Assembly: GCF_003952425.1 (NCBI RefSeq) | Contig: NZ_CP034449.1 | Span: 4,824,001 to 4,888,000 of the forward strand | DNA length: 64,000 bases | Direction of reading: 5' to 3' | From: Mesorhizobium sp. M2A.F.Ca.ET.046.03.2.1 | GTDB taxonomy: Bacteria; Pseudomonadota; Alphaproteobacteria; Rhizobiales; Rhizobiaceae | Notes under the pieces: generated by a model | Told to the model about the DNA's origin: nothing | The model's input: the letters and a program-made list of their open reading frames with translations, nothing else | The model's database searches: none | Part shown: positions 1-17,829 of the stretch, piece after piece | Layout of the letters: every line of letters starts with the position of its first letter | How positions within the stretch are numbered: position 1 is the first letter of the stretch | Translations under genes and position numbers: made by a program

Positions 1-84
1 GACGGAATTGCCCGGATCCTCGCTCAGCCGGTTGGCGAGAACGCAGCCGGCCGGGCCGGCGCCAACAATGATGTAGTCAGCCAT
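1..84 (-). CDS. GMC oxidoreductase, N-terminal fragment (cut by window edge)
   Basis: Only the first 28 codons lie in the window. They begin [20 protein letters not shown], which contains the GxGxxG dinucleotide-binding motif (VGAGPAG) followed by the A/C-V-L-A-N-R-L-S segment typical of choline-dehydrogenase-type GMC flavoproteins. The family oxidises alcohols using FAD. The ATG lies just 6 bp downstream of the stop of the adjacent SDR gene, so it is the last visible member of the minus-strand catabolic operon. Its substrate cannot be told from this fragment. The family call is inferred from the N-terminus alone. Confidence 0.75.
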
Positions 85-90
85 TGTTCC

Positions 91-852
91 TCACAAGCGT
101 GGCACCGAGAGCGCGCCGTCGACATCGATGACCGATCCGGTCGAAAAGCCGAATTTGCCGGAGGCGAGCGCCGCAACCACGGCGCCGATGTCGGCGGCTT
201 CGCCCCAGCGTTTTGCCGGCACCAGGCCGTCCTCGATCAGCGCGTCATATTTGGCGGAGACGCCAGCGGTCATATCGGTGCGGATGATGCCCGGCCGTAC
301 CTCGAACACGCCGATGTTCTCGGGCGCGAGCCGCAGCGCCAGATTCTTCACCCACATTGAAAGGCCGGCTTTGGAAATGCAGTAGTCGGCTCGTTCCGGC
401 GAAGCCATGTTGGCGCTGACTGAAGTGATGGTGATGATCGATCTGGCTGAGCCGGCAGATGCCGCCAGCATAGCCTTGGCGATGGCCTGGCTGAGGAACA
501 CCGTGCCGCGCAGATTGATATTCAGCGCGCGGTCGAAATTCTCCGGCTTAAGCTCCAGCAGGTCGCCGCGGACAACGGCGCCGATGCCGGCATTGTTGAC
601 CAGGCAATCGATGCGACCGAAGGCGCGCATGGCTGCCTCGACCAGTTTCGAATGGCCGGCGAGATCCGCGATGTCGCATTGGGCGTAAGTGAAATTCGCG
701 CCCCGCCCCACGATCGTGTCGGCAAGGCCGTCGGCAGGTCTCTCGGCAAGGTCGGCCACCAGAATGTCGAAGCCGGCATCCGCCAATGCCTCGGCGCAGG
801 CGAGCCCTATGCCGCGCGCGCCGCCGGTGACGATGGCTGCCGGGCGAGTCAT
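91..852 (-). CDS. Short-chain dehydrogenase/reductase (SDR), 3-ketoacyl-ACP reductase-like
   Basis: The 253-residue protein is a classical SDR, a cytoplasmic NAD(P)-dependent alcohol/ketone oxidoreductase. The cofactor motif TGGARGIG is at residues 9-16, NNAG at 86-89, the catalytic Ser at about 144, and the YxxxK pair at Tyr157 and Lys161 (YCISK). Length and motifs are full and intact. The ATG overlaps the stop of the upstream GMC oxidoreductase gene by 4 bp (ATGA), implying translational coupling in the sugar-uptake operon. It probably oxidises or reduces a hydroxyl group of the imported substrate or an intermediate, but which one is not visible. Many SDRs of this type are annotated 3-ketoacyl-ACP reductase by default; a lipid role is unlikely in this context. 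Confidence 0.9.
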   Translation of the reverse strand: MTRPAAIVTGGARGIGLACAEALADAGFDILVADLAERPADGLADTIVGRGANFTYAQCDIADLAGHSKLVEAAMRAFGRIDCLVNNAGIGAVVRGDLLELKPENFDRALNINLRGTVFLSQAIAKAMLAASAGSARSIITITSVSANMASPERADYCISKAGLSMWVKNLALRLAPENIGVFEVRPGIIRTDMTAGVSAKYDALIEDGLVPAKRWGEAADIGAVVAALASGKFGFSTGSVIDVDGALSVPRL

Positions 853-2351
853 GCCGCAAGCTCCGTCTTTCGAAGGTAATCAGCAACCCGCAGCGCCTGC
901 GCCGCGATCGACAGCGCCGGATTGACCGCGGCGGAGGTCGGCAGGAACCCGCCGTCGACGATGAACAGGTTCCGGTGATCCCAGGCGCGGCAGAAGGGGT
1001 CGAGCGGCGAGGTGGCCGGGTCGTTGCCCATCTTCACCGTGCCGCATTGGTGCGAGGGCGTGCGCTTGTCGAAGGGGCGCGACAGCACGATTGGATAGCC
1101 GCAGGCGCGCAGGTTCTCGCGCATCACCTTGGTCAGGCCTTCCAGCGACTGCATGTTGGAGCGCCGCCACTGCATGACGATCTCCTTGCCGTCGACCATG
1201 ATGCGGCTTTCGGGATCGGGCAGGTCCTCGCACATCAGGTACCAGTCGACGGCGTGGCCGGCCATGAAGTCGAGCACGAATTTCGGCATCGTCTTCACAT
1301 TGGCCTTGAGCATGTTGCCGTCGATCTTGCCGAGCAGTTGCACATTGCCGAGCGGCTTGCCGCCCTTGCCGTCCGACAGATAGTAGTCGTTGAGCATCAG
1401 CGTCTTCTGGTAGACGCTATTGTTGCGGCGGCGCGGATCGATCGCCAGCATGGCGCTCGAATTGTGGTTCATGAAATTGCGTCCGACCTGGTCGGAGCTG
1501 TTGGCGAGGCCTTTGCCTTTCGCCGAGGGCGAGCGCAGCAGGATGGCGGCCGAGTTGATCGCGCCGGCGGAGAGGATGACGAGCTTCGGCGACAGCGTCT
1601 TTTGCGCGCCGTTCTGGGTATAGTGGATGGCGGTGATCGTCTTGCCGTCCGGCGCGGTTTCGAGCCAGTCGACATGGGCGCCGGTTTCCAGGCGGATGTT
1701 CGGATCCGTCAGCGCCTCGGCCAGCGGGCCGGTCTGCGCGTCGATCTTGCCCTGGCCGGTGTTGGGGAAGGCGTCCCAGCCGGTCTTGCCTTCCTTCAGC
1801 CAGGTCTCGATGTCGACGCCGAGCGGCAGCGATGCCGGATGCAGACCGAGACCTTTCAACTCGGCGCGGGCGCGGGCGATCGGCGGCTCGTCCGGCACCG
1901 GCTTGAAGGGATAGGGGATTGAATGGAACGGCTCGGTCGGGTCTTCGCCGAGCGCGCCGCGCACGCGAAAGAGCTGCTCGGCCTTCGAATACCAGGGCTC
2001 GAACTCGTCATAGGAAAACGGCCAGGCCGGCGAGACGCCGCCGAAATGCTCGAGCTCGGAGAAATCCTCCTTGCGGTAGCGGATCAGGACGGCGCCGAAG
2101 AACTTCGAATTGCCGCCGACATAGTAGTAATTGCCGGGGTTGAAGGGCGCGCCTCCGGCCTCGCGCCACATCTCCTTCGGCCGGTAGTGCTCGTCCAGGA
2201 AAATCGATCGCGTCGAGCGCGCATGCGGTGTCGCGGGCAGCGGCTCGCCGCGCTCCAGGATGAGGATCGAGGCACCGCTGCCGGCCAAGCCGGAGGCGAT
2301 CGTGGCGCCGCCGATGCCGGAGCCGATGATGACGATATCCGCGTTTGTCAT
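849..2351 (-). CDS. GMC family oxidoreductase
   Basis: A 500-residue flavoprotein of the glucose-methanol-choline family. The N-terminus has the FAD motif GSGIGGAT (G10, G12, G15), followed by the ERG segment that binds the ribose. Near the C-terminus, His434 (PSHQCGTVKMG) and Asn477 (VNPALS) match the family's His/Asn active-site pair. No signal peptide or haem-binding motif is seen, so electrons probably leave the protein through a partner or to oxygen. The gene follows the ABC-transporter ATPase gene by 5 bp and overlaps the SDR start by 4 bp. The likely role is oxidation of a sugar or polyol hydroxyl brought in by the neighbouring importer; the substrate is inferred from context only. Confidence 0.88.
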   Translation of the reverse strand: MTNADIVIIGSGIGGATIASGLAGSGASILILERGEPLPATPHARSTRSIFLDEHYRPKEMWREAGGAPFNPGNYYYVGGNSKFFGAVLIRYRKEDFSELEHFGGVSPAWPFSYDEFEPWYSKAEQLFRVRGALGEDPTEPFHSIPYPFKPVPDEPPIARARAELKGLGLHPASLPLGVDIETWLKEGKTGWDAFPNTGQGKIDAQTGPLAEALTDPNIRLETGAHVDWLETAPDGKTITAIHYTQNGAQKTLSPKLVILSAGAINSAAILLRSPSAKGKGLANSSDQVGRNFMNHNSSAMLAIDPRRRNNSVYQKTLMLNDYYLSDGKGGKPLGNVQLLGKIDGNMLKANVKTMPKFVLDFMAGHAVDWYLMCEDLPDPESRIMVDGKEIVMQWRRSNMQSLEGLTKVMRENLRACGYPIVLSRPFDKRTPSHQCGTVKMGNDPATSPLDPFCRAWDHRNLFIVDGGFLPTSAAVNPALSIAAQALRVADYLRKTELAA

Positions 2352-2356
2352 AGCTT

Positions 2357-3472
2357 TTAAAGTATGCGCTTCTCGGTCGCCGGGTCGAAGAACACCGCCT
2401 TGCTGAGGTTGAAGGCCAAGGGCGTGCTGGTGCCGGGCTGGATCCTGGCATCGGCTCTCAGCCGCGCCACCACGCCCTTGCCGCCGAGATTGGTGACGGC
2501 GAAGGTGTCGGAGCCGGCCGGCTCCACCACCTCGATATGGCAGTCGGCGGTGGCGATGGCGGACCCGTTGCGTTCCGCGCCTTCCGGATCGGTCAGCGCT
2601 TCGGGACGGACACCGAAGATGACCTGCTTGTCCTTGAAGGCCGACAGACCGGCGGGCGCGCCGGGCATCGGCAGCACGATCGGCTGGCGCGACTCGCGGT
2701 CCAGCACCACCGAAAGGCCGGCGCCATTGCCGTCGATCTTGGCCGGGATCAGGTTCATCGCCGGCGAGCCCATGAAGTCGGCGACGAAGATGTTGGTCGG
2801 GTTGTTGTAGATCTCGGCCGGCGTGCCGAATTGCTGCACCTCGCCGTCGCGCATCACCGCGATCTTGGTCGCCAAGGTCATCGCCTCGATCTGGTCGTGC
2901 GTGACATAGACAATGGTCGTGCCGGTGGTGGCATGCAGGCGCTTGATCTCGATGCGCATGTCGACACGCAGCTTGGCGTCGAGGTTGGAGAGCGGCTCGT
3001 CGAACAGGAAGAGTTTCGGGTCGCGCACCAGCGCCCGGCCCATGGCGACGCGCTGGCGCTGGCCGCCGGAAAGCTGGCTGGGCTTGCGGTTGAGCAGGTG
3101 GCCGATCTGCAGGATCTTGGCGACCTTGTCGATCGCCGCCTGGCGCTCCGCCGCCGGCACGCCGCGCATCTCCATGCCGAAGGCGATGTTTCCGGCAACC
3201 GTCATGTTGGGGTAGAGCGCGTAGCTCTGGAACACCATGGCGATGTCGCGCTTCGAAGGGTGCAGATCGTTGATGGCGCGGCCATCGACGCGGATCTCGC
3301 CCTCGGTGATCTGCTCCAGACCGGCGATGGTGTTGAGCAGCGTGGATTTGCCGCAGCCGGACGGGCCGACCAGCACCAGGAAGCCGCCCTTTTCGAGCTC
3401 GACATTGATGCCCTTCAGGATCTCGACGCTCCCGAAGCGCTTCTTCAGCCCATCAATTTCCAGAAAAGCCAT
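2357..3472 (-). CDS. Carbohydrate ABC transporter ATP-binding protein (MalK/UgpC type)
   Basis: A 371-residue ABC ATPase that powers the sugar importer encoded next to it. Walker A is GPSGCGKST (residues 36-44), the signature is LSGGQRQR, and Walker B with the D-loop is LFLFDEPLSNLDAKL. The C-terminal 130 residues form the TOBE/OB extension typical of the CUT1 family (MalK, UgpC, MsmK), and the length fits that family. It lies 21 bp downstream of the inner permease gene, the usual order for a CUT1 operon. The TOBE region may take part in regulation as in MalK, but nothing here proves it. Confidence 0.95.
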   Translation of the reverse strand: MAFLEIDGLKKRFGSVEILKGINVELEKGGFLVLVGPSGCGKSTLLNTIAGLEQITEGEIRVDGRAINDLHPSKRDIAMVFQSYALYPNMTVAGNIAFGMEMRGVPAAERQAAIDKVAKILQIGHLLNRKPSQLSGGQRQRVAMGRALVRDPKLFLFDEPLSNLDAKLRVDMRIEIKRLHATTGTTIVYVTHDQIEAMTLATKIAVMRDGEVQQFGTPAEIYNNPTNIFVADFMGSPAMNLIPAKIDGNGAGLSVVLDRESRQPIVLPMPGAPAGLSAFKDKQVIFGVRPEALTDPEGAERNGSAIATADCHIEVVEPAGSDTFAVTNLGGKGVVARLRADARIQPGTSTPLAFNLSKAVFFDPATEKRIL

Positions 3473-3493
3473 GGTCGTTCCTTCCGAATGGGG

Positions 3494-4438
3494 TCAGCCC
3501 TTGACCGCGCCGGCCATCAGCCCGCGCACGAAATAGCGGCCGGCGACGACATAGACGATCAGGGTGGGGAGCGCGGCGATCATCGCCGCCGCCATGTTGA
3601 CATTGTATTCGACGACGCCGGTCGAGGTGTTGACGACATTGTTCAACGCCACAGTCATCGGCATCACGTCGCCGGAGCCGGCATAGGCGGAAGCGAACAG
3701 GAAGTCATTCCAGATGTTGGTGAACTGGTAGATCACCGTCACAACGATGATCGGCAGCGAATTGGGCAGCATGATGCGCCGGAAGATCTGGAAGAAGGAG
3801 GCGCCGTCGACCTGCGCCGCCTTGATCAACTCGGTCGGGAAGGCCTCGTAATAGTTGCGGAAGAAGAGCGTGGTGAAGCCCAGTCCATAGACGACGTGGA
3901 CGAAGACCAGGTTCACCGTCGAATTGCCGAGGCCGAAATTGAACCCTGTCGCGTTCTGCAGCGTGACGCCGAAGCGTCCGAGGCTGCCGAGGATCGTCGC
4001 CATCGGCAATAGCACCGACTGGAACGGGATGAAACAAGCAAACAGCATCATTGCGAAGACCAGCGTGTGGCCGCGGAAGCGCCATTTGGTCAACACATAG
4101 CCATTCAGCGCGCCAAGCAGCGTCGAGATCAGCACTGCCGGCACGACCATCTTGATGGAGTTCCAGAAATAGCCTTTCATGCCGACGCAGGTCAGACCCG
4201 AGCAAACTTCACTCCACGCCTTTATCCATGGTGCGAAAGTCGGCGCATGCGGCAGCGATAGCATGTTGCCGTTCTGGATCTCGTCCATGGTCTTGAACGA
4301 GGTCACCAGCATGACGAAGAGCGGCATCAGGTAGAAGATCGCGAACAGGGCCAGCAGGCCGTAGATGACGATGCGATTGATCGCCTTGCTGCTCAGGCCG
4401 CTCGAAGCCTGGCGGGCGGGTGAAGTGACGGCGCTCAT
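3494..4438 (-). CDS. Carbohydrate ABC transporter permease (MalG type)
   Basis: A 314-residue inner-membrane permease, second of the CUT1 pair. A first membrane helix lies near residues 25-47 (VIYGLLALFAIFYLMPLFVM) and several more follow. The cytoplasmic EAA loop that docks on the ATPase reads KAAQVDGASFFQIFRRIMLP. The start overlaps the stop of the upstream permease gene by 4 bp, so the two subunits are probably translated together to form the heterodimeric channel. The periplasmic loop CSGLTCVGMKG has two cysteines close together that could form a disulphide. The transported sugar is unknown. Confidence 0.94.
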   Translation of the reverse strand: MSAVTSPARQASSGLSSKAINRIVIYGLLALFAIFYLMPLFVMLVTSFKTMDEIQNGNMLSLPHAPTFAPWIKAWSEVCSGLTCVGMKGYFWNSIKMVVPAVLISTLLGALNGYVLTKWRFRGHTLVFAMMLFACFIPFQSVLLPMATILGSLGRFGVTLQNATGFNFGLGNSTVNLVFVHVVYGLGFTTLFFRNYYEAFPTELIKAAQVDGASFFQIFRRIMLPNSLPIIVVTVIYQFTNIWNDFLFASAYAGSGDVMPMTVALNNVVNTSTGVVEYNVNMAAAMIAALPTLIVYVVAGRYFVRGLMAGAVKG

Positions 4439-5394
4439 CGCGACTTCTCCCTGAGCTCGGAATAGAGATACGGAACAATGATGGCCGTGATGGTCATCAG
4501 CATGATCACGGCGCTGGCCGACCCGACCGCCATCTCGTTGCGCTTGAAGGTGAACTCATACATGAAATTGGACGGCAGCCAGGCCGAGCCGCCGGGGCCG
4601 CCGCTGGTCAGCGCGACGACCAAGTCATAGGACTTGATGGCCAGATGCGCGAGCACGATGAAGGCCGACAGGAACACCGGCCGCAGCAGCGGAATGACGA
4701 TGCGGCGGTAAAGCTGGAAGGTGGATGCGCCGTCGATCTGCGCCGCCTTCATGATCTCGCCGTCGATGCCGCGCAGGCCAGCCAGGAACATCGCCATGAT
4801 GAAGCCGGAAGCCTGCCAGACGCCGGCGATGACGACCGTGTAGATGACGAAATCCTTGTTCTTGATCCAGTCGAAATGGAAGCTCGTCCAGCCCCATTGG
4901 TGCAGCGTCTGCTCCAGCCCGAGGCCGGGATCGAGGAACCATTTCCAGGCGACGCCGGTGACGATGAAGGAGAGCGCCATGGGGTAGAGATAGATCGGCC
5001 GCAGCATGCCTTCGCCGCGGATCTTCTGGTCGAGAAGGATGGCCAGGAACAGGCCGAGCGCCAGGCAGATCAGGATATAGAGGAAGCCGAAAATGCCCAT
5101 ATTGGTGATCGAGGTGTACCAGCTCGACGGCGGATCGCTCTCGAAGGTCCAGCGCCACAGCCGCTGATAGGCGCGGGGACCGGTGATGGCGTAGGACGGG
5201 AAAGTCTTGGAATTGGTGAAGGACAGATAGATCGTCCACAGGATGAAGCCGTAGACGAAGACGATCGTCGCCGCGAAGCTCGGCGCCAGAACGATCTTCG
5301 GCAACAAATCCTGCAGCCGCGACCGTACCGACGCGCCGGGACGGGCGTCGTGCTCCGGTGTCAGCTTGATCTGGGTTTCGGCAACTGTGCTCAT
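4435..5394 (-). CDS. Carbohydrate ABC transporter permease (MalF type)
   Basis: A 319-residue inner-membrane permease. I chose the ATG at 5394 (MSTVAETQIKLT) because the open frame upstream of it codes for sequence unlike the family and runs into an intergenic stem-loop. The first membrane helix begins near residue 37 (IVLAPSFAATIVFVYGFILW), and the EAA motif is KAAQIDGASTFQLYRRIVIP. It pairs with the following permease gene through a 4-bp overlap. The 125-bp gap from the binding-protein gene carries a strong hairpin, which usually allows binding protein to be made in excess over the membrane subunits. Confidence 0.93.
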   Translation of the reverse strand: MSTVAETQIKLTPEHDARPGASVRSRLQDLLPKIVLAPSFAATIVFVYGFILWTIYLSFTNSKTFPSYAITGPRAYQRLWRWTFESDPPSSWYTSITNMGIFGFLYILICLALGLFLAILLDQKIRGEGMLRPIYLYPMALSFIVTGVAWKWFLDPGLGLEQTLHQWGWTSFHFDWIKNKDFVIYTVVIAGVWQASGFIMAMFLAGLRGIDGEIMKAAQIDGASTFQLYRRIVIPLLRPVFLSAFIVLAHLAIKSYDLVVALTSGGPGGSAWLPSNFMYEFTFKRNEMAVGSASAVIMLMTITAIIVPYLYSELREKSR

Positions 5395-5478
5395 CGGCTT
5401 GTCCAGTTCCGGTTGGTCGGAAACCGCCCGGCGCGAAAACGCACCAGGGTTGTCCCACACCTTTTGTCGACAGGAGAC

Positions 5479-5500
5479 CTCCCCCGCCGAAGCGGGGGAG
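5479..5500 (-). other. Intergenic stem-loop between binding-protein and permease genes
   Basis: A perfect 9-bp GC-rich stem (CTCCCCCGC / GCGGGGGAG) closes a CGAA tetraloop, 19 bp after the stop of the substrate-binding protein gene. There is no T-run behind it on the minus strand, so it is more likely an mRNA 3'-end stabiliser or partial terminator than a full terminator. Such hairpins often raise the amount of binding protein over permeases (known for malE-malF); that role here is inferred. Confidence 0.7.
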
Positions 5501-5519
5501 ACCTGAGTTCAAGCGATCC

Positions 5520-6773
5520 TTACTTGGCGTCGTCGATCGCCTTGACCAGCTCGGTCACGGCCTCGTCGGAGCTCTTGATCTGACCATGGACGAATTTCGA
5601 CACGACGTCCTTGTAGGCGTTGGCGACGGCGGGCGGAGCGCCGTAGCCCTGCGCCAGCGAGCCGAACAGCGTGCCGCCTTCGTTGGCCTTCTTCAGGTCG
5701 GCGATGCCCTTCTTGCCGCAAGCGTCGAAGTCGGTGTCCGGCACGTCGGTGCGGGCCGGGACCGAACCCTTCACCACGTTGAAGGCCGACTGGAAGCTTT
5801 TCGACAAGGTGGCGGTGGCCAGCGCGACCTGGGCGGCCTTGCGATCCTCCGGCACGTTGAACATGCCGAACATGTCGGAGTTGTAGATCACCGAGCCGTC
5901 GGTGCCCGGGAAGCGGTAGCAGAGGAAGTCGGTGTCAGGGGTCTTGTTGGCGGCGTGGAACTCGCCCTTGGCCCAGTCGCCCATGACCTGAACCAGCGCG
6001 TCGCCCTTGATGACCATGGCGGTGGCGAGGTTCCAGTCGCGGCCCGAGAAGTTCGGGTCCACATATTTGACGAGCTTGGCGAGGTTGTCGAACGACTTCT
6101 TCATCGTGTCGGACTTGAGCGAGTCCTCATCGAGGTCGTTCATCGCCTTCTTGTAGAACTCCGGCCCGCCGGTCGACAGCACGACGGAGTCGAACATGGT
6201 GGCCTCCTGCCAGTTCTGGCCGCCCAGGGCGAGCGGGATGACGCCCGCAGCCTTGGCCTTGTCGAGCAACGCCACGAAGTCGTCGAAGGTCTTCGGCTCG
6301 GTGCCGCCGATCTTGTCCATCACCGCCTTGTTGATCCACAGCCAGTTGACGGAGTGGACGTTGACCGGTGCGGCCACCCACTTGCCGTCATAGACCGAGA
6401 ATTTCTGCAGGGCGGCCGGAACCGACTTGTCCCAGCCTTCCTTCTTGGCGGTCTCGGTCAGGTCGCCCATGACGCCGGCGGCGGCATAGTCGAGCACGGT
6501 GTAGCCCAGCATCTGCGAGGCGGTCGGGTAGTTGCCGGCCGCGACCATCGCCTTCAGCGCGGTCATGGCGGCGTCGCCGCCGCCGCCGGCCACCGGCACG
6601 TCCTTCCAGGCAAAGCCTTCCTTGGCCAGATCCTGCTTCAGCACGTTCAGAGCTGCCGCTTCGCCGCCCGAGGTCCACCAATGCAGCATCTGCACTTCCT
6701 TGACGTCCGCGGCATGCGCCGAGAACGCAAAGCTCGTCGCAAGAGCCGTTCCGATAAACAGTTTGCGCAACAT
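5520..6773 (-). CDS. Sugar ABC transporter substrate-binding protein
   Basis: A 417-residue periplasmic binding protein of family 1 (MalE-like). It starts with a clear Sec signal peptide, [21 protein letters not shown], cleaved after AHA; the mature part then runs [18 protein letters not shown], with the HWWTSGGE segment usual for rhizobial and glucose/mannose-type CUT1 binding proteins. It catches the sugar and delivers it to the two permeases. A hairpin lies on each side of the gene in the transcript, consistent with separate control of its level. The ligand is not known; the neighbouring oxidases suggest a sugar, polyol or glycoside. Confidence 0.94.
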
Positions 6774-6802
6774 GTACTACCTCCCTTGTTGCATACACAT
6801 AA

Positions 6803-6820
6803 CCGGCGGGTGTCCGCCGG
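6803..6820 (-). other. Stem-loop between aldehyde dehydrogenase and binding-protein genes
   Basis: CCGGCGG and CCGCCGG form a perfect 7-bp stem with a 4-base loop in the 58-bp gap. There is no clear U-run after it. It could attenuate transcription from the regulator side or mark the 5' end of a separate transporter transcript. Confidence 0.5.
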
Positions 6821-6831
6821 CGTCTCCCAAC

Positions 6832-8346
6832 TCAGCCGACCCACCAACCGGTACGCTGGCCGCGATGAAACTGGATGGTCTTTTCCTCGGTATAATCCTC
6901 GACAGCGCGTTTGCCGAGTTCGCGTCCCAGACCGGACTGCTTGTAACCCCCGAAAGGCAGCTCTGGGTAACCTTCCATGAACGTGTTCACCCAGACCGTC
7001 CCCGAACGCACACCGCGCGCCACCGACATGCATGTGTCGATGCTGGCGCTCCACACCCCTGCAGACAAACCATAGGGCGTGTTGTTGGCAATGTGCAATG
7101 CCTTTTCAATCGTTTCAAAAGTGAGCACGGACAGCACCGGACCGAACACTTCCTCGCGCGCGATCGCCATGTCTTCCGTGACGTTACGGACGATAGTCGG
7201 ATCGAGATATTGGCCGGCGTTGGATTGAAGCCGGGTGCCGCCGGCGAAAACGCTGCCGCCGTCAGTTTGCGCCGCCGCAACATAGCCGGCTACCCTTTCC
7301 ATATGATCGGCCGAGATCATGGCGCCGACCTTGGTGCGGTTGTCGAGCGGATCGCCGACGCGGACCTTTTCAGCCAGCGCCTTGACTGCGCCAAGGAAGT
7401 CGTCGGCGATCGCCTCATGCACGATCAGGCGGCTGCCGGCATTGCAGCATTCGCCGGCGTTGAAGAAGCCGCCGAACACCGCGGCGTCCGCCGCCGCTTC
7501 GAGGTCGGCGTCGGGGAAGACGATCTGGCCGTTCTTGCCGCCGAGTTCCATCGAGACCTTCTTAAGCGAATTGGAGGCGGCGGCCATCGTCATCTTGCCG
7601 ACACGGGTCGAGCCGGTGAAGGAGACCATCTCGACCAGCGGATGGCTGACCATCGGCGCGCCGATATCCGAGCCGTAGCCGGCGAGGATGTTGACGGCGC
7701 CGGGGGGCAAGCCGGCTTCGAGCAGGATGTCGCCAAGCACGAAGGTCGAGGCCGACGTCATTTCGCTGGGCTTCACCACAGCCGTGCAGCCGGCGGCGAG
7801 CGCGAAGGGCAGTTTCTGGCTGACGATCAAGAAGGGGAAGTTCCACGGCGTGATGATCGAGACGACTCCGATCGGTTCGCGCAGCACCACGCCCAGCATA
7901 TCGTCGCCGAGATTGGCGTAGCTTTCGCCATGCAGCGTGCGGGCGAGCGAGGCGGCATAGCGCCAGATATCGACGGCGCCGCCGATCTCGCCGCGCGCCT
8001 GGGCGATCGGCTTGCCGGATTCCAGCGCGTCGAGCCGGGCGATCTGTTCCAGCCGGCTTTCTATCAGGTCGGCGGCCTTGAGCAGCACCGCGGCGCGCTC
8101 CGAGGCCTTCATGCGCGGCCAGGGTCCGGTTTCGAAGGCCCTGTGCGCGGCCTGCACAGCGGCCTCGACTTCCGCGGCGCCGGCCTGGGCATAGCGGGAC
8201 ACGACAAAACCATGGCCGGGGCTGGCGCGCTCGATGCTGCGGCCGTCGCTGGCGTCGACATGCTTGCCGCCGATCAAGAGCTTGTAGGGCTGCGGCGCCT
8301 GGGACGCTTCGGCCGGCATGGCAATGTTGAGCGGTGCGTTCATCAT
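6832..8346 (-). CDS. Aldehyde dehydrogenase (NAD(P)+-dependent)
   Basis: A 504-residue ALDH-superfamily enzyme that oxidises an aldehyde to the acid. Catalytic residues are visible: Asn169 (PWNF), Glu267 (MELGGKN) and the nucleophile Cys301 in FNAGECCNAGSR. Length is normal. Two ATG codons stand in tandem at the start (8346 and 8343). The gene follows the crotonase gene by 7 bp, so it belongs to the same transcript. In this pathway it would convert an aldehyde made by the alcohol oxidases or by an aldolase step into a carboxylate, which the neighbouring CoA-transferase could activate. That order of steps is inference. Confidence 0.93.
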   Translation of the reverse strand: MMNAPLNIAMPAEASQAPQPYKLLIGGKHVDASDGRSIERASPGHGFVVSRYAQAGAAEVEAAVQAAHRAFETGPWPRMKASERAAVLLKAADLIESRLEQIARLDALESGKPIAQARGEIGGAVDIWRYAASLARTLHGESYANLGDDMLGVVLREPIGVVSIITPWNFPFLIVSQKLPFALAAGCTAVVKPSEMTSASTFVLGDILLEAGLPPGAVNILAGYGSDIGAPMVSHPLVEMVSFTGSTRVGKMTMAAASNSLKKVSMELGGKNGQIVFPDADLEAAADAAVFGGFFNAGECCNAGSRLIVHEAIADDFLGAVKALAEKVRVGDPLDNRTKVGAMISADHMERVAGYVAAAQTDGGSVFAGGTRLQSNAGQYLDPTIVRNVTEDMAIAREEVFGPVLSVLTFETIEKALHIANNTPYGLSAGVWSASIDTCMSVARGVRSGTVWVNTFMEGYPELPFGGYKQSGLGRELGKRAVEDYTEEKTIQFHRGQRTGWWVG

Positions 8347-8353
8347 GTCTTCT

Positions 8354-9119
8354 CTAGGATCTCGAAAAGGCCGGCTTCTGCCTGGCCTTGAAGGCGCCGA
8401 CGCCGGCTTTGAGGTCGCCCGTCAGCGCAATGAAGCCGCTGGCCAGCGCCTCGGTCGCGGCTGCGTCTTCCTCGCCCTCGGCAACGCCGATCATCAGCTT
8501 GGCGGCCTCGGTCGCCAGCGGGCCGCGCTCGGCGATCTTTTCGGCCCAGCTTCTGGCTTCGTCGAAAGCCTTGCCGGTTTCGACCAGCCGGTCGACGATG
8601 CCGTCCGCCAGCGCGTCGGCCGCCAGGAAAATCTCGCCGCCAATCGCCATCCGGCGCACGATCTGTGCACCGAAGCGGCGCACGGCGCGTTGCGTGCCCG
8701 ACCATCCGGGAACGACGCCGATAGAGGTTTCGGGGAAGCCGAGTTTTATCTGCGTTTCGGCGACGCGGAAATCGCAAGCGGCCGCCAGCTCCAGCCCGCC
8801 ACCCAGCGCATGGCCGGACAGAACCGCGATGGTCGGTTGCCGGAGCCGCGCCAGCCGGTCGAAGACGCGGTGGCCATAGCGCACCCATTGCACCTGAAAA
8901 TCGGCGGCGCTCATCGCGCCCCAGGCTTCGACGTCGCCGCCGGCGCAAAAGCCCTTGCCTTCGCCACGGATGAGAACGGCGCGGACGCCCTCGGCCCGCT
9001 CCGCCTCGTCGAGCGCTGCTTCCAGGGCACGCAGCATCGGGATGTCGAGCGCGTTGAACTTTTCCGGCCGGCGCAGCGTGACGATGCCGATCGCGCCATC
9101 CTGCTCGAAAGTTACGAGT

Positions 9120-9127
<8 letters not shown>
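8354..9127 (-). CDS. Enoyl-CoA hydratase/isomerase family protein (crotonase fold)
   Basis: A 257-residue crotonase. The start at 9127 (MAELVTFEQDGAIGIVTLRR) is chosen because it aligns with the family and overlaps the CoA-transferase gene by 8 bp; the longer open frame upstream is shadow sequence. Oxyanion-hole segments CAGGD and GHALGGGLELAAACD are present, and both glutamates that activate water in true hydratases are kept (GGGLELA and FPETSIG). It acts on an acyl-CoA or possibly on a beta-dicarbonyl compound, as some crotonases do. Finding it inside a sugar-uptake operon next to a CoA-transferase is unusual. Confidence 0.9.
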
Positions 9128-12774
<3,647 letters not shown>

Positions 12775-12810
12775 CCTCGTTCCGTCCTCCACGGTTTTGA
12801 GCAAATTTTA

Positions 12811-12836
12811 TTGGAACGTTCTAATCACCGTTCCAA
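12811..12836. promoter_or_regulatory. LacI-type operator, regulator side
   Basis: TTGGAACGTTCTAA (12811-12824) is a near-perfect palindrome with the central CG pair typical of LacI/GalR operators. A further half-site CGTTCCAA (12829-12836) makes a second, wider inverted repeat with the left arm TTGGAACG, spaced by 10 bp. It lies 37 bp upstream of the regulator ATG, and matches the site near the opposite gene, so autoregulation by the adjacent LacI protein is likely. Confidence 0.78.
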
Positions 12837-12974
12837 ATCAGAGTCAATCGTGATTCCCGCGGGATTTGAAAAATTGATTGGTGCGGTTCAGAAGCCCATT
12901 AATGCGGGCGTTTCTCCACGGCGGGACTATGCCCTGACGGCTCGAATCCCAAGATCATAGAGCTTCTTGATTTA

Positions 12975-12988
12975 TTGGAACGTTCCAT
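12975..12988. promoter_or_regulatory. LacI-type operator, DUF993 side
   Basis: TTGGAACGTTCCAT contains the perfect 12-bp palindrome TGGAACGTTCCA (12976-12987). It sits 28 bp before the ATG of the DUF993 gene, where a bound repressor would block transcription. It shares 12 of 14 bases with the site 164 bp away on the regulator side; the two could be bridged in a loop. The ribosome-binding site GGGAGA follows at 13004-13009. Confidence 0.8.
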
Positions 12989-13015
12989 TTATAGGAGCCG
13001 CAACGGGAGAGTTCC

Positions 13016-14170
13016 ATGGACATCATCTTGCCTGCGGCAAACGGCGACCAGATCGGCTACCGGCTCGTCGGCAAGCCGGTCGAGCCGAGCAAGAACGCGC
13101 ATTTTTCGCGCATCGCCTATGCCGCCGCCCATGTCGTCGCCGACCCCATCGCCATGACCAATCCGTGGTCGCGGCCAGCGGTCGACTGGGACAAGACCAT
13201 GGCGTTCCGTCATCATCTGTGGCGGCTCGGCTTCCGCATCGCCGAGGCCATGGACACCTCTCAGCGCGGCATGGGTTTCGATTGGGCGAGCGCCAAGGAG
13301 TTGATCCGCCGCTCGGTCGCCGAGGCCAGAACAGTGCCGGGCGCCGACCTTGCTTCAGGGGCGGGGACCGATCACCTGGCGCCGGCGGCGGTCAAAACGC
13401 TCGACGACGTCATCGGCGCCTATGAGGAGCAGTTCGGCTTCATCGAAGGCGAGGGCGGCAAGGCGATCATGATGGCGAGCCGCGCGCTGGCGGCGGTGGC
13501 AAAAGGGCCGGACGATTATACCCGGGTCTACGACCGCATCCTGTCGCAGGCCTCCGGCAAGGTCATCCTGCACTGGCTCGGCGACATGTTCGATCCGGCG
13601 CTCAGGGGCTATTGGGGCAGCAGCGATTTCGACGCGGCACTGGATACGGTCGTCGCCATCATCGAGCGGCATGCAGACAAGGTCGAGGGCATCAAGATAT
13701 CGCTGCTCGATGCCGAGAAGGAAGTGCAGTTGCGCGACCGGCTGCCCGAGGGTGTCGTGATGTTCACCGGCGACGACTTCAACTATCCGGAGCTGATCGC
13801 CGGCGACGGCAGGCGGCATTCGCACGCGCTGCTCGGCATCTTCGACGCCATCGCGCCCGTGGCCAATGCCGCGCTGGCGAAGCTGGCTGAAGGCGACAAG
13901 GCCGGCTATGACGCGCTGATGGCGCCGACCGTGCCGCTGTCGCGAAAAATCTTCGAAGCGCCGACCGAATACTACAAGGCCGGCATCGTCTTCATGGCTT
14001 GGTTGAACGGGCATCAGGACCATTTCACCATGATCGGCGGCATGCAGTCGGCGCGCGGCATATGCCACTATGCGGACGTGTTCCGCCTAGCCGACCAGGC
14101 AGGCCTGCTGGCCGATCCCGATCTTGCCTCCGCCAGGATGAAGAGCCTGCTGGCGACGGCCGGCATCTGA
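13016..14170 (+). CDS. DUF993 family protein (DHDPS/class I aldolase-like)
   Basis: A 384-residue protein of the DUF993 family, which is grouped with the dihydrodipicolinate-synthase/N-acetylneuraminate-lyase superfamily. The segment VEGIKISLLD holds Lys227 at the place where that superfamily has its Schiff-base lysine, so a pyruvate- or ketose-type aldolase/lyase or dehydratase role is plausible. The ATG is 7 bp after GGGAGA. The gene is the first of the plus-strand arm and lies directly behind a LacI-type operator, so it is probably induced with the importer. The actual reaction is not established; the Schiff-base assignment is my alignment by eye. Confidence 0.85.
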   Translation: MDIILPAANGDQIGYRLVGKPVEPSKNAHFSRIAYAAAHVVADPIAMTNPWSRPAVDWDKTMAFRHHLWRLGFRIAEAMDTSQRGMGFDWASAKELIRRSVAEARTVPGADLASGAGTDHLAPAAVKTLDDVIGAYEEQFGFIEGEGGKAIMMASRALAAVAKGPDDYTRVYDRILSQASGKVILHWLGDMFDPALRGYWGSSDFDAALDTVVAIIERHADKVEGIKISLLDAEKEVQLRDRLPEGVVMFTGDDFNYPELIAGDGRRHSHALLGIFDAIAPVANAALAKLAEGDKAGYDALMAPTVPLSRKIFEAPTEYYKAGIVFMAWLNGHQDHFTMIGGMQSARGICHYADVFRLADQAGLLADPDLASARMKSLLATAGI

Positions 14171-14262
14171 ACCGATCGCCCGGCGGCGATTTGCGTTCCG
14201 CCGGCAAACCTGTATTCGCTTGCCAAAATCGCGTTGCACCAAGGCGGACTACGGGTGAGCAG

Positions 14263-14282
14263 ATGGAAGTTCCCGGCTTGAG
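14263..14282 (+). pseudogene. 5' fragment of IS-interrupted SDR gene
   Basis: ATGGAAGTTCCCGGCTTGAG codes MEVPGL plus two bases, then the IS begins. Joined to the sequence after the second target-site copy, the frame continues RGRVAVITAAGQNIG. This restores a 254-residue SDR, a normal family length, which supports this ATG as the original start, 92 bp after the DUF993 stop. Confidence 0.85.
14274..14282. repeat. Target-site duplication, left copy (9 bp)
   Basis: CGGCTTGAG directly abuts the left inverted repeat of the IS element and is repeated exactly at 15580-15588. A 9-bp duplication lies in the range known for IS4-family elements. Confidence 0.9.
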
Positions 14283-14301
14283 CAGGGCTGTCCGGGGAAA
14301 G
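14283..14301 (+). repeat. IS left terminal inverted repeat (19 bp)
   Basis: CAGGGCTGTCCGGGGAAAG matches the reverse complement of the right end at all 19 positions. Confidence 0.93.
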
Positions 14302-14396
14302 GTTCGGGTGAATCGAAATGCCGCATGTGCATGCCCCGTAAGACGGGGATTTTCCGTCTACCTTCTGGTTGTCGAGACTCAGAAAGGGAACGGGGC

Positions 14397-15560
14397 ATGC
14401 GCTTTACGCCTAGCATTCTTGGCAAGCTGGTTGAACCGATCAATCGTCGCCGCTTCCAGACGATTGTGGATAGCCATGACGGGGATGCGTATGACAAGTC
14501 GTTCAAGAGCTGGGACCATCTCGTGGTGTTGATCTATGCTCAGCTCAGCGGCGCGACGAGCCTTCGCAGCCTGCAAGCCGGCTGGAACGCCAACTGCCAG
14601 CACCATTACCACCTCGGCAGCGACCTGTTGCGGCGCTCGACCTTGTCGGACGCCAACCGGCGCCGCCCTGTAGCCGTCTTCGCCGAGACGTTCGCCCTGC
14701 TTGCAGGCCAACTCGACCGGCAGATGCGTCGCGAAGGCAGTGCCATGCTGCGGCTGATCGATTCCACGCCCATCCCGCTCGGCAAGCTTTGCGACTGGGC
14801 CAAGTCGAACGGCCGCATCCGCGGCATGAAGCTGCATATCGTCTATGATCCAGACAGCGACTGTCCGCGCGTCCTCGACATCACCGATGCCAACGTCAAC
14901 GACGCCCAGATCGGCCGCACCATCTCTATCGAAGACGGTGCGACCTACGTGTTCGACAAGGGTTACTGCCACTACGGCTGGTGGACGGCGATCGCGGCGG
15001 CGCAAGCCTTCTTCGTCACCCGGCCCAAAACCAACATGGGGCTCAAGCTGGTGTGCGATCGTCCCCTCGCAGCCATGCACGGCGATGGCTTCACCGTGCT
15101 TGAGGATGCCGAGGTGAGCTTTGCCAGCAAAGGCGATTCCAAACTGCCGATCCGCTTGCGTCGCATCATCGTGAAGCGAGACGAAGGCGACACCATCACG
15201 CTGCTGACCAACGATCTCGAGCGCTCGGCCGCCGACATAGCAGCCCTCTACAAGGGGCGCTGGCAGATTGAGCTCCTGTTCCGCTGGATCAAGCAGCACC
15301 TCAAGATCCGTAAGTTCCTCGGCAACAATGACAACGCCATCCGCCTGCAGCTCTTCGCCGCCATGATCGCCTATGCGCTGTTGCGCATTGCAGCGCGCGC
15401 ATATCGCGTTGCACTGCCGATCCTGCGCTTCACCGACCTGGTGACACGATGCCTGTTCGAGCGGCGCCACATCGCCGCCATCGACAAACCGCCGCCCGTC
15501 AATCCAAGTCGAAGGTACCCCCGCTGCTCTCCCGATCAGATGAGCCTCGACTATGTCTAA
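14397..15560 (+). CDS. IS4-family transposase (DDE)
   Basis: A 387-residue transposase. The N-terminal part (MRFTPSILGKLVEPINRR ... WDHLVVLIYAQLSGATSLRSL) is the DUF4372-type domain of IS4 elements. The DDE catalytic acids are visible: Asp in RLIDSTPIPLGK, Asp in YVFDKGYCHYGWW and Glu in YKGRWQIELLFRWIK, the last showing the Y-(2)-R-(3)-E-(6)-K signature of the family. The ATG at 14397 follows a purine-rich AAAGGGAACGGGG stretch and aligns with the family start; an upstream in-frame ATG is less likely. No frameshift or stop is seen, so the enzyme should be active. Confidence 0.95.
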   Translation: MRFTPSILGKLVEPINRRRFQTIVDSHDGDAYDKSFKSWDHLVVLIYAQLSGATSLRSLQAGWNANCQHHYHLGSDLLRRSTLSDANRRRPVAVFAETFALLAGQLDRQMRREGSAMLRLIDSTPIPLGKLCDWAKSNGRIRGMKLHIVYDPDSDCPRVLDITDANVNDAQIGRTISIEDGATYVFDKGYCHYGWWTAIAAAQAFFVTRPKTNMGLKLVCDRPLAAMHGDGFTVLEDAEVSFASKGDSKLPIRLRRIIVKRDEGDTITLLTNDLERSAADIAALYKGRWQIELLFRWIKQHLKIRKFLGNNDNAIRLQLFAAMIAYALLRIAARAYRVALPILRFTDLVTRCLFERRHIAAIDKPPPVNPSRRYPRCSPDQMSLDYV

Positions 15561-15579
15561 CTTTCCCCGGACAGCCCTG
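15561..15579 (-). repeat. IS right terminal inverted repeat (19 bp)
   Basis: CTTTCCCCGGACAGCCCTG is the exact inverse of the left end and begins at the base after the transposase stop codon. Confidence 0.93.
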
Positions 15580-15588
15580 CGGCTTGAG
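15580..15588. repeat. Target-site duplication, right copy (9 bp)
   Basis: CGGCTTGAG, identical to 14274-14282, marks the right-hand junction of the IS. Confidence 0.9.
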
Positions 15589-16333
15589 GGGGCGGGTGGC
15601 GGTCATTACCGCGGCCGGCCAGAACATCGGCAAGGCCGTCGCCCTGGCGTTCGCTCGAGCGGGGGCGCACATCGTGATTACCGGCGGCAGCGATCTGGCC
15701 AAGATCGAGGCCGTGGCGGATGAGGCGCGATCCTTAGGCGTCGAGGCGGTGGCCTCCGTCTGCGACGGCACCGACGAGACTGCCATGAACGCCTTGATCG
15801 AATGGGCGGTCGCGGAACTCGGCGGCGTCGACATCGCGGTATCCTGCGTCGGGATAGGACCGCATCAGCCGATCGCGGAGATCACCCTTCAGGACTGGCA
15901 GAAGGTGATGAACACCAATCTCGGATCGGCTTTCATCCTGACCCAGGCGGTGCTTCCGCACATGCGCAGGAGGAAGTATGGCCGCCTGCTTTACATGGCG
16001 GGCACGGACGCCCTTTTCCCGCTGGCAAACAGGGCGCATGTGGTCGCCGCGAAGCACGGCATGCACGGCCTGGCGAAGGCCGTGGCTCTGGAATGTGGGC
16101 CGGACGGGGTGACCGCCAACAGCATCGCGCCTGGATGGCTGGACACCGACCGAAACGCGGCGTGGTATCCCGATCTTGAGAAGACCTACGAGCATGTGAG
16201 AGCCACGGTGCCGCTCAGGACGTTGGGGACCGCCGAGGACGTCGCCAATGCCTGCCTCTATCTCGCATCGGACATGGGCAAGTTCGTCACCGGACATTTG
16301 TTGCACGTCAACGGCGGCGAGTTCATGGTGTAG
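15580..16333 (+). pseudogene. SDR family oxidoreductase, 3' part, interrupted by IS element
   Basis: This part codes for nearly all of an SDR: GLRGRVAVITAAGQNIGK supplies the cofactor loop and ASDMGKFVTGHLLHVNGGEF the usual C-terminal end. The first six codons lie on the other side of the IS; removing the IS and one duplication gives an uninterrupted 254-residue protein. The frame is open back into the right end of the IS, so a fused protein from an ATG at 15449, or a shorter one from a GTG at 15597, could still be made. The SDR is also atypical: the usual YxxxK reads VVAAK (no Tyr), the Ser site reads MAGTD and NNAG reads SCVG. It was probably the second gene of the DUF993 arm. Confidence 0.85.
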
Positions 16334-16362
16334 GACCGCAATCGGCAAGGGGGCGCGTCGGC

Positions 16363-16656
16363 GTGAAGGGATACTGGCTCATCGTCGGAACCGAGATTTC
16401 GGACCAGGAAGCGCAGGCCGAATATGCCCGGCTCTGGAAGCCGATCGGCGAAAAATACCAGGCACGCACCAACACGACAAAGCAGCCGCCGCTGCTCGTC
16501 GAGGCGCGTGACGCCAAGCGCATGGTGCTTGTGGAATTTCCGTCGCTGGACATTGCCAAGGCCTGCTACGCCGACCCGGCCTATGAGGAAGCCATGCGCT
16601 TCGCGCTGAAGGCGTCGAATCGTACGCTGGTGATGTTCGAAGGGGATCTGGGGTAG
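16363..16656 (+). CDS. DUF1330 domain-containing protein
   Basis: A small 97-residue protein with the DUF1330 ferredoxin-like alpha/beta fold: MKGYWLIVGTEISD at the start, KRMVLVEFPSLDIAKACYADPAYEEA in the middle and NRTLVMFEG near the end. It uses a GTG start at 16363 with AAGGGGG about 10 bp upstream. The gene follows the interrupted SDR by 29 bp and was probably co-transcribed with DUF993 and that SDR; the IS upstream may now reduce its expression. The function of the family is unknown, though members occur beside catabolic oxidoreductases. Confidence 0.85.
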   Translation: MKGYWLIVGTEISDQEAQAEYARLWKPIGEKYQARTNTTKQPPLLVEARDAKRMVLVEFPSLDIAKACYADPAYEEAMRFALKASNRTLVMFEGDLG

Positions 16657-16758
16657 AAAAGCGGATGGGCCGACGGGCTGCTCAGGCGAGAGAATTTTTC
16701 CCACTGAGGCAAAAAAGCCATGCCGACCGATGGGCGGCCCGCAACGATTCACGTGAGG

Positions 16759-17427
16759 TCAAAAGCGGTAGTTCAGGCTCAGCGAAACCGTATGGGTGCT
16801 AGGCTTGACGAATGTTGGGCCAACCAACACGCTGTCGTCTTCGAAATTATGATCCGAGAAATGCGCGTAGGCGTAATCAAGGCCGACAACCCATTTGTCA
16901 TTGAGCGCGTAATCTGCGCCAACACCGATCGTCCAGCCGGTATAAGTCCGGTCAAACTTCGTATCTCCAAAACCGAGAACGCTATATCCGGTATCGTGCA
17001 GGTGCAGGAAGGCCACGCCGCCCTTAACATAGGGGAGAAAATTGCCCATCGCGTATCCGGCCTTGGCGACGATATCGCCCTGCCAATCGGCAGCGGTCTC
17101 GAATGTTTCACTGTCGATCGTCGGCACGGTCTTCTTGTTGAACACGGCAACCAGACGGGCCTCCGCTCCAACAACGAAATTGTTGTCGAACTGGTACTGG
17201 TAGCCTACTTGGCCGCCAATCGATGCCGATGTGCTGTCGCCATCATATCCGCTGGGATCATCATTGGGAATCCTCACATCACCCTTGAGAAAATTGACCC
17301 CGGCCACTGCGCCAATATACGCGCCTGTCCAATTGTAGGACGAGGGCTCGACTGACAATGCGTCGGCGGCAAAGGCTGACGAACAAAACCCAACAAGCAT
17401 TGCCGATGTGAGTAGAGCCGTCCTCAT
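16759..17427 (-). CDS. Outer-membrane beta-barrel protein, Omp25/Omp31-like porin family
   Basis: I start the 222-residue protein at 17427, where MRTALLTSAMLVGFCSSAFA forms a Sec signal peptide; two in-frame ATGs up to 36 bp upstream would put charged residues in front of it. The mature part has SYNWTGAYIGAVAGVNF followed by alternating beta strands and ends HTVSLSLNYRF, with a terminal Phe as barrel-assembly signal. This is the eight-stranded OmpA-like barrel family of rhizobial and Brucella Omp25/Omp31 proteins. It stands alone, with no operon partner, so it is a general surface protein rather than part of the neighbouring catabolic locus. Confidence 0.9.
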   Translation of the reverse strand: MRTALLTSAMLVGFCSSAFAADALSVEPSSYNWTGAYIGAVAGVNFLKGDVRIPNDDPSGYDGDSTSASIGGQVGYQYQFDNNFVVGAEARLVAVFNKKTVPTIDSETFETAADWQGDIVAKAGYAMGNFLPYVKGGVAFLHLHDTGYSVLGFGDTKFDRTYTGWTIGVGADYALNDKWVVGLDYAYAHFSDHNFEDDSVLVGPTFVKPSTHTVSLSLNYRF

Positions 17428-17627
17428 AACCCGCCTATCGCTCCGGTCCGCCATTGCATCCATGGGTTGATAGCACGGGTTTCAGGGGTGCGCTGTAACA
17501 CAGCGGCAACAGTGGCGCTGGTGGATGCGTCCCGAGAGATTGCTTCCGACACCGTGAGCGTCGGACGCAACGAAAAACGGGGTTCCTGTGCCAGAAAGTG
17601 GCGGAGACGGCTAAGTTATTGAAAGGA

Positions 17628-17702
17628 TGGTGGGCGTGACAAGGATTGAACTTGTGACCCCTGCAATGTCAATGCAGTGCTCTCCCGCTGAGCTACACGC
17701 CC
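17628..17702 (-). tRNA. tRNA-Val (GAC)
   Basis: The complement folds into a standard cloverleaf of 75 bases with encoded CCA. Acceptor arms GGGCGTG and CACGCCC pair fully; the anticodon arm is CTGCA-TTGACAT-TGCAG with anticodon GAC; the T arm is ACAAG-TTCAATC-CTTGT. No integrated element adjoins its 3' end. Confidence 0.97.
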
Positions 17703-17778
17703 ATCCGACGCCGCGCATACACCACTTTTGATCCGGCACGTCAATAGCGGGAATGTGGAAAGACGGCTTCCGTTTGTC

Positions 17779-17803
17779 GCATCGGCGAAGCGCCTGCCGA
17801 TGC
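17779..17803 (-). terminator. Stem-loop downstream of cpdR
   Basis: GCATCGGC and GCCGATGC form a perfect 8-bp stem with a 9-base loop, 27 bp beyond the cpdR stop. There is no U-run on the minus strand, so an intrinsic terminator is possible but not firm. Confidence 0.4.
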
Positions 17804-17829
17804 AGGGCCCGATCCGGGCTGGAGGCGGC

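Follow-up and report, generated by a model that had tools for sequence, protein, structure and literature searches.

What substrate would call for a sugar importer, several oxidoreductases and enzymes of CoA-thioester chemistry in a single run of genes? This question is raised by a locus at the start of a 64,000-nucleotide stretch of the nitrogen-fixing soil bacterium Mesorhizobium sp. M2A.F.Ca.ET.046.03.2.1 (the window; its position 1 is base 4824001 of a 7.37 Mb single contig). A first-pass annotation of the window had linked a sugar importer both to CoA chemistry and to the oxidation, by flavin and NAD(P) enzymes, of a cyclic sugar or polyol, and the gene identities support this description. 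We find that the locus is genuine: a regulon that centres on an orthologue of 1,5-anhydro-D-fructose reductase (AFR), is widespread and conserved in Rhizobiaceae, and is broader than the window alone showed. As to its function, the reading that we prefer, while rating it a little short of an even chance, is a LacI-controlled regulon that would take up a glucose-like cyclic polyol and oxidise it aerobically. The polyol would most likely be a 1,5-anhydrohexitol, with 1,5-anhydroglucitol, anhydromannitol or anhydrofructose as candidate substrates.

AFR and its conserved neighbourhood

The Gfo/Idh protein of the locus matches the solved AFRs 2GLX and 4KOA with 471 and 463 bits over ~330 aa and is 66% identical to 4KOA, while the next-best family, glucose-fructose oxidoreductase, scores 114 bits. 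Judged by these matches it is a full-length orthologue of characterised AFR, and NADPH-dependent reduction of 1,5-anhydrofructose to 1,5-anhydromannitol is predicted for it. AFR also reduces osones. Two other identities were rejected: the levoglucosan enzyme LgdA (NF052479, 88.7 bits against a cut-off of 650) and an enzyme of the C-glycoside pathway (DgpA chains, at most 73 bits against 471 for AFR).

A search for the gene order across relatives found the set to be widespread, with AFR matches in 116 of 394 Rhizobiaceae genomes (query 4KOA, E<=1e-90). In 40 stretches of up to 20 kb around AFR matches, chosen over the whole identity range, genes were counted at E<=1e-8 and short contigs counted as misses. 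The CoA-transferase was detected in 39 of the 40, the crotonase of the enoyl-CoA hydratase type (ECH) in 38, together with the CoA-transferase in all 38, the aldehyde dehydrogenase (ALDH), sugar-binding protein (SBP), both permeases, ATPase, the GMC oxidoreductase GMC1 and the short-chain dehydrogenase (SDR) in 37 each, a second GMC oxidoreductase (GMC2) in 36 and DUF993 in 35. These counts include the distant importer, ALDH and GMC matches of one stretch, L258 (L numbers label stretches), which is not this operon and has no CoA-transferase, ECH, GMC1, SDR1, DUF993 or palindrome. The CoA-transferase directly adjoins AFR in 38 of the 40 loci (in L252 about 2 kb separates the two), and the entire gene order is found in L219, where AFR and 4KOA share 98% identity; AFR therefore belongs to this operon. 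A second sample comprised 80 loci picked by DUF993 match (the best 80 of 448), all from Mesorhizobium or unclassified relatives, with stretches that on the importer side extend only to the ATPase or GMC1. LacI is found in 80 of 80 and AFR in 69; contig ends account for the loci in which the CoA-transferase (found in 79) or the crotonase (found in 78) is missing. The grouping of genes in these 80 loci is far from chance.

In the window the locus is laid out as follows.

1..84, minus strand: GMC2, first 84 bases; second GMC oxidoreductase, choline dehydrogenase / CapO type, remainder beyond the window
91..852, minus strand: SDR1, short-chain dehydrogenase; NF009386 (PRK12745) family, NCBIfam 365 bits, cut-off 250
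849..2351, minus strand: GMC1, 500-aa GMC oxidoreductase of sugar-ring type; Pfam GMC
2357..3472, minus strand: CUT1 importer ATPase, MalK/UgpC-type; domain and family profile matches
3494..4438, minus strand: CUT1 importer permease; BPD_transp_1
4435..5460, minus strand: CUT1 importer permease; BPD_transp_1
5520..6773, minus strand: CUT1 sugar-binding protein; 549 bits to 4R2B
6832..8346, minus strand: ALDH; Aldedh 559 bits
8354..9127, minus strand: crotonase (ECH), enoyl-CoA hydratase-type; ATG at 9127
9120..10721, minus strand: fused family I CoA-transferase, YdiF/FadX type; TTG start, YdiF 364 bits
10718..11734, minus strand: AFR orthologue (Gfo/Idh/MocA); ATG at 11734, 471 bits to 2GLX
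11731..12774, minus strand: LacI-family regulator; probable ATG at 12774
12811..12824, no strand: operator-like palindrome TTGGAACGTTCTAA, LacI side; bases >=95% kept in 81 aligned sequences
12975..12988, no strand: operator-like palindrome TTGGAACGTTCCAT, DUF993 side; bases >=95% kept in 81 aligned sequences
13016..14170, plus strand: DUF993 protein, DHDPS-fold lyase candidate; Pfam 615 bits, lysine 227 on strand 6
14282..15580: IS element (DDE_Tnp_1/DUF4372); perfect 20-bp inverted repeats, 8-bp flanking repeat GGCTTGAG

The gene coordinates bear out the order first described for the minus-strand genes between 91 and 12774, with gaps of 59 bp at most and five overlaps of 4-8 bp: 4 bp for SDR1/GMC1, permease/permease, CoA-transferase/AFR and AFR/LacI, and 8 bp for ECH/CoA-transferase. 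Both of the GMC oxidoreductases claimed for the unit exist, but only GMC1 is whole in the window; the body of GMC2 lies beyond it (L003, a host-genome stretch, 16456-18084, minus strand, 542 aa, GMC_oxred_N 183 bits), and after GMC2 comes a gene for a Dabb protein (genome 4822140-4822445), also outside the window. No sigma-70 promoter was found in window 1-14300, where 1.7 are expected. The divergent arm had been drawn as DUF993, a second SDR (SDR2) and a DUF1330 protein. Its DUF993 part stands, at 13016-14170, but SDR2 and DUF1330 were rejected as members on their rarity: SDR2 occurs in 8 and DUF1330 in 14 of the 80 Mesorhizobium stretches (scored, like the transposase, at E<=1e-10), and DUF1330 in 0 of the 40 AFR stretches (E<=1e-8). 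In the gene lists of S. meliloti Ak57, Rhizobium sp. SL42 and R. daejeonense, the gene that follows DUF993 is neither an SDR nor DUF1330. The IS element interrupts the 5' end of SDR2, a gene that is intact in L005, where it adjoins DUF993; the transposase of the IS is present in 0 of the 80 Mesorhizobium stretches.

The palindrome TTGGAACGTTCCAA occurs twice between LacI and DUF993 (12811 and 12975), with one mismatch each, and both copies are retained in 81 aligned sequences. TTGGAACGTTCYAW is found exactly twice in the 7.37 Mb genome, both times at the locus, and the reversed control 0 times. Among the AFR loci, 39 of 40 carry TTGGAACGTTCCAA with at most two mismatches, and 35 carry it at least twice; the shuffle control (one mononucleotide shuffle per locus) gave 0. 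A lax scan of the window with 3 mismatches returned 2 matches against 1.4 expected, which is chance level; the weight for the palindrome is in its conservation and the genome-wide scan, and the window count alone proves nothing. The copies in AFR loci lie at LacI/DUF993 or before AFR. Where AFR identity is lower, the palindrome stands before AFR, and the same run of genes mostly finishes with DUF993 and, if the stretch extends that far, LacI; DUF993 is thereby linked to the system. This is a LacI-controlled regulon with a conserved palindrome, the putative operator, at the regulator and target promoters, and the single LacI regulator first proposed for the window locus is supported.

Regulation of the CoA genes apart from the importer had been named beforehand as an outcome that would speak against that first proposal. 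It is not seen in the window and is seen in 11 of 34 type-1 loci, in which the ALDH-SBP gap exceeds 900 bp; 10 of these 11 have a second, divergent LacI there. In L220, L223 and L224 the exact palindrome also precedes GMC2. In these relatives, regulation of the importer, GMC1 and SDR1 looks separate from that of the CoA genes; the latter look to stay with AFR, DUF993 and, in L220, L223 and L224, GMC2.

Enzymes of the locus and a proposed route

The binding protein scores 549 bits to 4R2B, a structure titled 'with bound glucose'. Its own structure model is poor (mean pLDDT 39), and the fold match of that model was used only for titles of entries already found by sequence. Together, the AFR orthologue and this glucose-bound relative point to what would be a glucose-like ring substrate. 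The best solved relatives of GMC1 are FAD glucose dehydrogenase (113 bits) and fructose dehydrogenase (84 bits). AFR and GMC1 lie at most 15 kb apart in 31 of 35 plasmid records, among the matches listed (the best 60 of 88 GMC1 records), and 11 of these records are near-identical Bradyrhizobium. Stretches of Bradyrhizobium and Arthrobacter likewise contain the pair, where the plasmid gene tables, which are incomplete, list no CoA gene.

The CoA-transferase, a fused alpha-beta chain, scores 364 bits to YdiF over 517 aa and 349 bits against FadX, below the cut-off of 750; its active-site Glu motif is present. The crotonase keeps both hydratase glutamates (E116/E136 numbered from 9136), which lie in GLELA and FPET, 20 residues apart, and align with solved hydratases. 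Its closest solved relative is 3-hydroxypropionyl-CoA dehydratase.

The DUF993 protein is a TIM barrel of the DHDPS/NAL superfamily, with a fold shared by KDG aldolase, NAL and DHDPS. K227, on strand 223-229 (strand 6), is present in 79 of 79 aligned rows, which partly duplicate genomes, and is only nearly invariant in a separate 37-row alignment. An invariant H186-W187 lies on or at strand 5; DHDPS/NAL-type enzymes have a catalytic tyrosine on strand 5. A solved DUF993 structure, 4DNH, is titled hypothetical protein, and no paper under the name DUF993 was found in the open-licence literature. The role of C-C lyase first suggested for DUF993 is consistent with the fold and the conserved lysine. 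On a plasmid of Streptomyces sp. NBC_00557 (L158), the gene directly after DUF993 encodes a type I polyketide synthase, and genes for AMP-binding and malonyltransferase proteins are nearby; from this setting, DUF993 may also serve biosynthesis. In S. meliloti, SMc04390-04392 presumably correspond to GMC2-SDR1-GMC1. SMc04132, SMc04133 and SMc04390-04392 are listed together in an S. meliloti PhaR/AniA table, where SMc04132 is DUF993 (PDB 4DNH) and SMc04390-04392 are an L-sorbose dehydrogenase, an SDR and a dehydrogenase (PMC12542648). This listing hints that the loci are tied to the PHB/CoA state.

From these proteins we infer a substrate, the carbons oxidised by GMC1 and GMC2, a DUF993 reaction, both C3 products and the C3/CoA steps. 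The ring compound would be imported via the CUT1 importer, and a ring hydroxyl would be oxidised by GMC1, either at C2, giving 1,5-anhydrofructose, or at C3. AFR would serve as a side entry that turns the 2-keto form, by reduction, into the manno compound. After further oxidation by SDR1 and GMC2, the keto compound would be split by DUF993 into two C3 pieces via a Schiff base on lysine 227, and ALDH, with GMC2, would form the acids. One acid would be glycerate, passing to glycerate kinase; the other would be activated by the CoA-transferase, after which the crotonase would dehydrate a 3-hydroxypropionyl-type to an acryloyl-type CoA.

The two C3 products, glycerate and 3-hydroxypropionyl/acryloyl-type CoA, are suggested by glycerate kinase, the relative of the crotonase and an acyl-CoA dehydrogenase match. 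Glycerate kinase lies beside the genes in L149, L156, L157, L219, L238 and L116, beside the second-type modules described below in L123, L152, L154, L164 and L166, and in the Gfo-DUF993-isomerase set of L167; the host genome has one copy, away from the locus. For the acyl-CoA dehydrogenase of the second-type modules, the best of 23 families is acryloyl-CoA reductase AcrC.

Weighing the substrate

The anhydrohexitol would be argued for by AFR, the AFR-GMC1 pairing, the binding-protein relative and the published account of S. morelense, which together bring it close to, and not quite to, an even chance. The fuller proposal is an undescribed aerobic 1,5-anhydrohexitol route with two ring-oxidising flavoproteins, in which GMC1 or GMC2 would include the enzyme after AFR, DUF993 would be a new Schiff-base sugar lyase and the C3 exit would run via a 3-hydroxypropionyl/acryloyl-type CoA. 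This version we regard as possible but doubtful. If true, its reading of DUF993 would be the first function for that family.

Several observations weigh against the anhydrohexitol and its C3 exit. Only 2 of 40 AFR stretches contain glycerate kinase, many of them stopping shortly after GMC2, and it is seen in 0 of 80 Mesorhizobium stretches, a large share of which do not extend to its possible place. The AcrC match, at 376.5 bits, is below the NCBIfam cut-off of 640, and no match to the second-type acyl-CoA dehydrogenase was found in the 40 AFR stretches. The published route from 1,5-anhydrofructose via 1,5-anhydromannitol to mannose requires, in the passages that set it out, no CoA step and names a P450-like enzyme; no P450 was found among the operon genes, to which that scan was confined, the rest of the genome lying outside it. 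Moreover, with these enzymes alone we found no chemically clean way to convert an anhydrohexitol into glycerate and 3-hydroxypropionate: on paper, ring-intact retro-aldol, C1-O or C5-O elimination and CoA-assisted ether cleavage were tried, and none suits every gene. AFR itself is absent in 10 of the 80 Mesorhizobium loci whose contigs would show it (L035, L037, L047, L049, L050, L052, L061, L068, L080 and L081, where it is lacking between CoA-transferase and LacI). These loci retain the other operon genes as far as their contigs reach, GMC1 being kept in 7 of the 10 while the remaining 3 stretches stop before its position. Six of the 10 genomes are without any AFR-like gene at E<=1e-60, and the other 4 hold only 42-43% paralogues. 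AFR is thus dispensable in some relatives, and therefore the main substrate need not be an anhydrosugar. By its gene number, SMc04396 is probably the S. meliloti counterpart of the operon's binding protein. SMc04396 is reported as dextrin-induced in the part of a study that concerns it (PMC4960864).

The last two points lead to the alternative that fares best, an unlikely one in our estimate, in which the substrate would be glucose, a glucoside or an alpha-glucan fragment, with GMC1 oxidising the ring, AFR reducing osones and the CoA branch handling another product. Besides the dispensable AFR and the reported dextrin induction of the probable S. meliloti binding protein, it can draw on the binding protein, closest to glucose- and galactose-bound structures, and on GMC1, closest among solved chains to FAD glucose dehydrogenase. 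However, ordinary glucose use requires neither CoA-transferase, crotonase nor DUF993, the operon genes include no glycoside hydrolase, and the AFR-GMC1 pairing persists across phyla.

Less probable again, and to us improbable, is a route through aldonyl-CoA. Here GMC2 and ALDH would give an aldonic-type acid, the CoA-transferase its thioester and the crotonase a 2-keto-3-deoxy acyl-CoA; the CoA would be handed to the next acid, and DUF993 would yield pyruvate and glyceraldehyde, the latter going to glycerate. Such a scheme suits the fold that DUF993 shares with KDG aldolase, NAL and DHDPS and its conserved lysine, explains glycerate kinase and ALDH, and fits a crotonase with both glutamates, yet DUF993 has His-Trp on strand 5 where these enzymes have tyrosine, and the type-2 acyl-CoA dehydrogenase and ETF are left without a role. 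Nor do we know of any described aldonyl-CoA dehydratase. The first-pass scheme, in which oxidised ring hydroxyls give a diketone cut by the crotonase as by a 6-oxocamphor hydrolase, the acids then being activated, is very improbable, and we rejected the crotonase as a diketone hydrolase: both hydratase glutamates are retained in it, its nearest relatives are enoyl-CoA hydratases and, among solved chains, 3-hydroxypropionyl-CoA dehydratase, and it stands with the CoA-transferase in 38 of 40 AFR stretches. A diketone is nonetheless conceivable, since the importer-GMC1-GMC2 sets of R. etli and Shinella include a ThDP enzyme whose matches, below cut-off, take in the diketone hydrolase IolD among others.

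Related modules and known systems

The CoA part of the locus (a GMC2-type GMC, ALDH, CoA-transferase, ECH, SDR and DUF993) recurs with an XI-like protein and an acyl-CoA dehydrogenase in what we call second-type modules, found in the host genome (L004), on S. meliloti pSymA and in Paracoccus, Sagittula and Janthinobacterium. These share with the window locus the GMC2-type GMC (50-54% among tested pairs) and ECH, several with glycerate kinase; their own are a CUT2 importer where shown, the XI-like protein, aldo/keto reductases, the acyl-CoA dehydrogenase and, in some, ETF, and neither AFR nor GMC1 was seen in them. L004 (genome 1558000-1577000) comprises a CUT2 importer, ALDH, GMC, aldo/keto reductases, CoA-transferase, ECH, XI-like protein, DUF993, SDR and acyl-CoA dehydrogenase, with identities to the window locus of 70% for CoA-transferase, 57% for DUF993, 49% for ALDH and 40% for SDR. 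The pSymA module has a CUT2 importer, and ETF genes end the same gene run. In Sagittula sp. P11 (L161, a plasmid) the CoA/DUF993 module lies beside genes for a degradative HMG-CoA reductase, a TRAP importer and a 3-keto-5-aminohexanoate cleavage protein.

R. etli CIAT 652 pC and Shinella HZN7 (L259, L260) have the importer, GMC1 (54-56%) and GMC2 (48-49%), but in place of the CoA genes they carry a HisD-like dehydrogenase and a ThDP enzyme from the acetolactate synthase family; this ThDP enzyme scores 305 bits to IolD, below the cut-off of 715, and acetolactate synthase models score higher. DUF993 itself is present in 35 of 385 genomes of class Alphaproteobacteria. Among 34 DUF993 stretches of other Alphaproteobacteria, DUF993 stands between a preceding Gfo gene and a following XI-like gene in 24, and a CoA-transferase was seen in only 2 (L123, L124). 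DUF993 occurs with glycerate kinase in three gene settings, of which two include CoA genes, and this link makes the function of DUF993 testable.

Among the closest known systems is the AFR route of Sinorhizobium morelense, whose 1,5-anhydrofructose catabolism was reportedly described by Kuhn et al. in 2006. The likeness is in the AFR orthologue within an operon, the Rhizobiaceae host and the aerobic setting. According to the sections of a 2025 review that treat this subject, S. morelense was isolated on 1,5-anhydrofructose, aerobic Rhizobiaceae convert 1,5-anhydrofructose to 1,5-anhydromannitol via AFR, the enzyme that acts next has yet to be identified, and no comparable oxidative pathway has been described for 1,5-anhydroglucitol (PMC12441222). 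In that account 1,5-anhydromannitol goes on to mannose by an unidentified C1-oxygenating enzyme, whereas in the window locus AFR stands amid GMC, CoA and DUF993 genes. The same sections state that 1,5-anhydroglucitol is harmful in two inherited neutropenias and that a probiotic has little prospect of lowering intestinal 1,5-anhydroglucitol until an aerobic enzyme is discovered (PMC12441222). The locus offers a short list of candidate genes for this missing aerobic anhydrosugar pathway, in tractable rhizobia.

Anaerobic breakdown of 1,5-anhydroglucitol by gut bacteria possibly concerns the same substrate class, but as described there it uses PTS phosphorylation and the glycyl radical enzyme YbiW/PflD (PMC12441222), where the window locus has an importer, flavoproteins and CoA enzymes. 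The levoglucosan pathway LgdA-LgdB1-LgdB2-LgdC, in the portion of its description that we draw on, shares an ABC importer, a Gfo/Idh oxidoreductase and anhydrosugar keto-sugar chemistry (PMC10066097). The window locus differs from it in a Gfo protein that is not LgdA and in the added CoA enzymes and GMC, and the XI-like gene is found in 0 of 40 AFR stretches. The oxidative deoxyribose pathway, with its DUF849 beta-keto acid cleavage enzyme, links a sugar acid to CoA transfer and glycerate, whereas the window locus has DUF993, a different family. The claim that no described pathway has this gene set held in our search: among the papers listed from the open-licence literature, a scope that leaves out most subscription journals, none treats this pathway. 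Set against these systems, the locus is an undescribed variant of sugar catabolism, built around an AFR enzyme that is itself already characterised.

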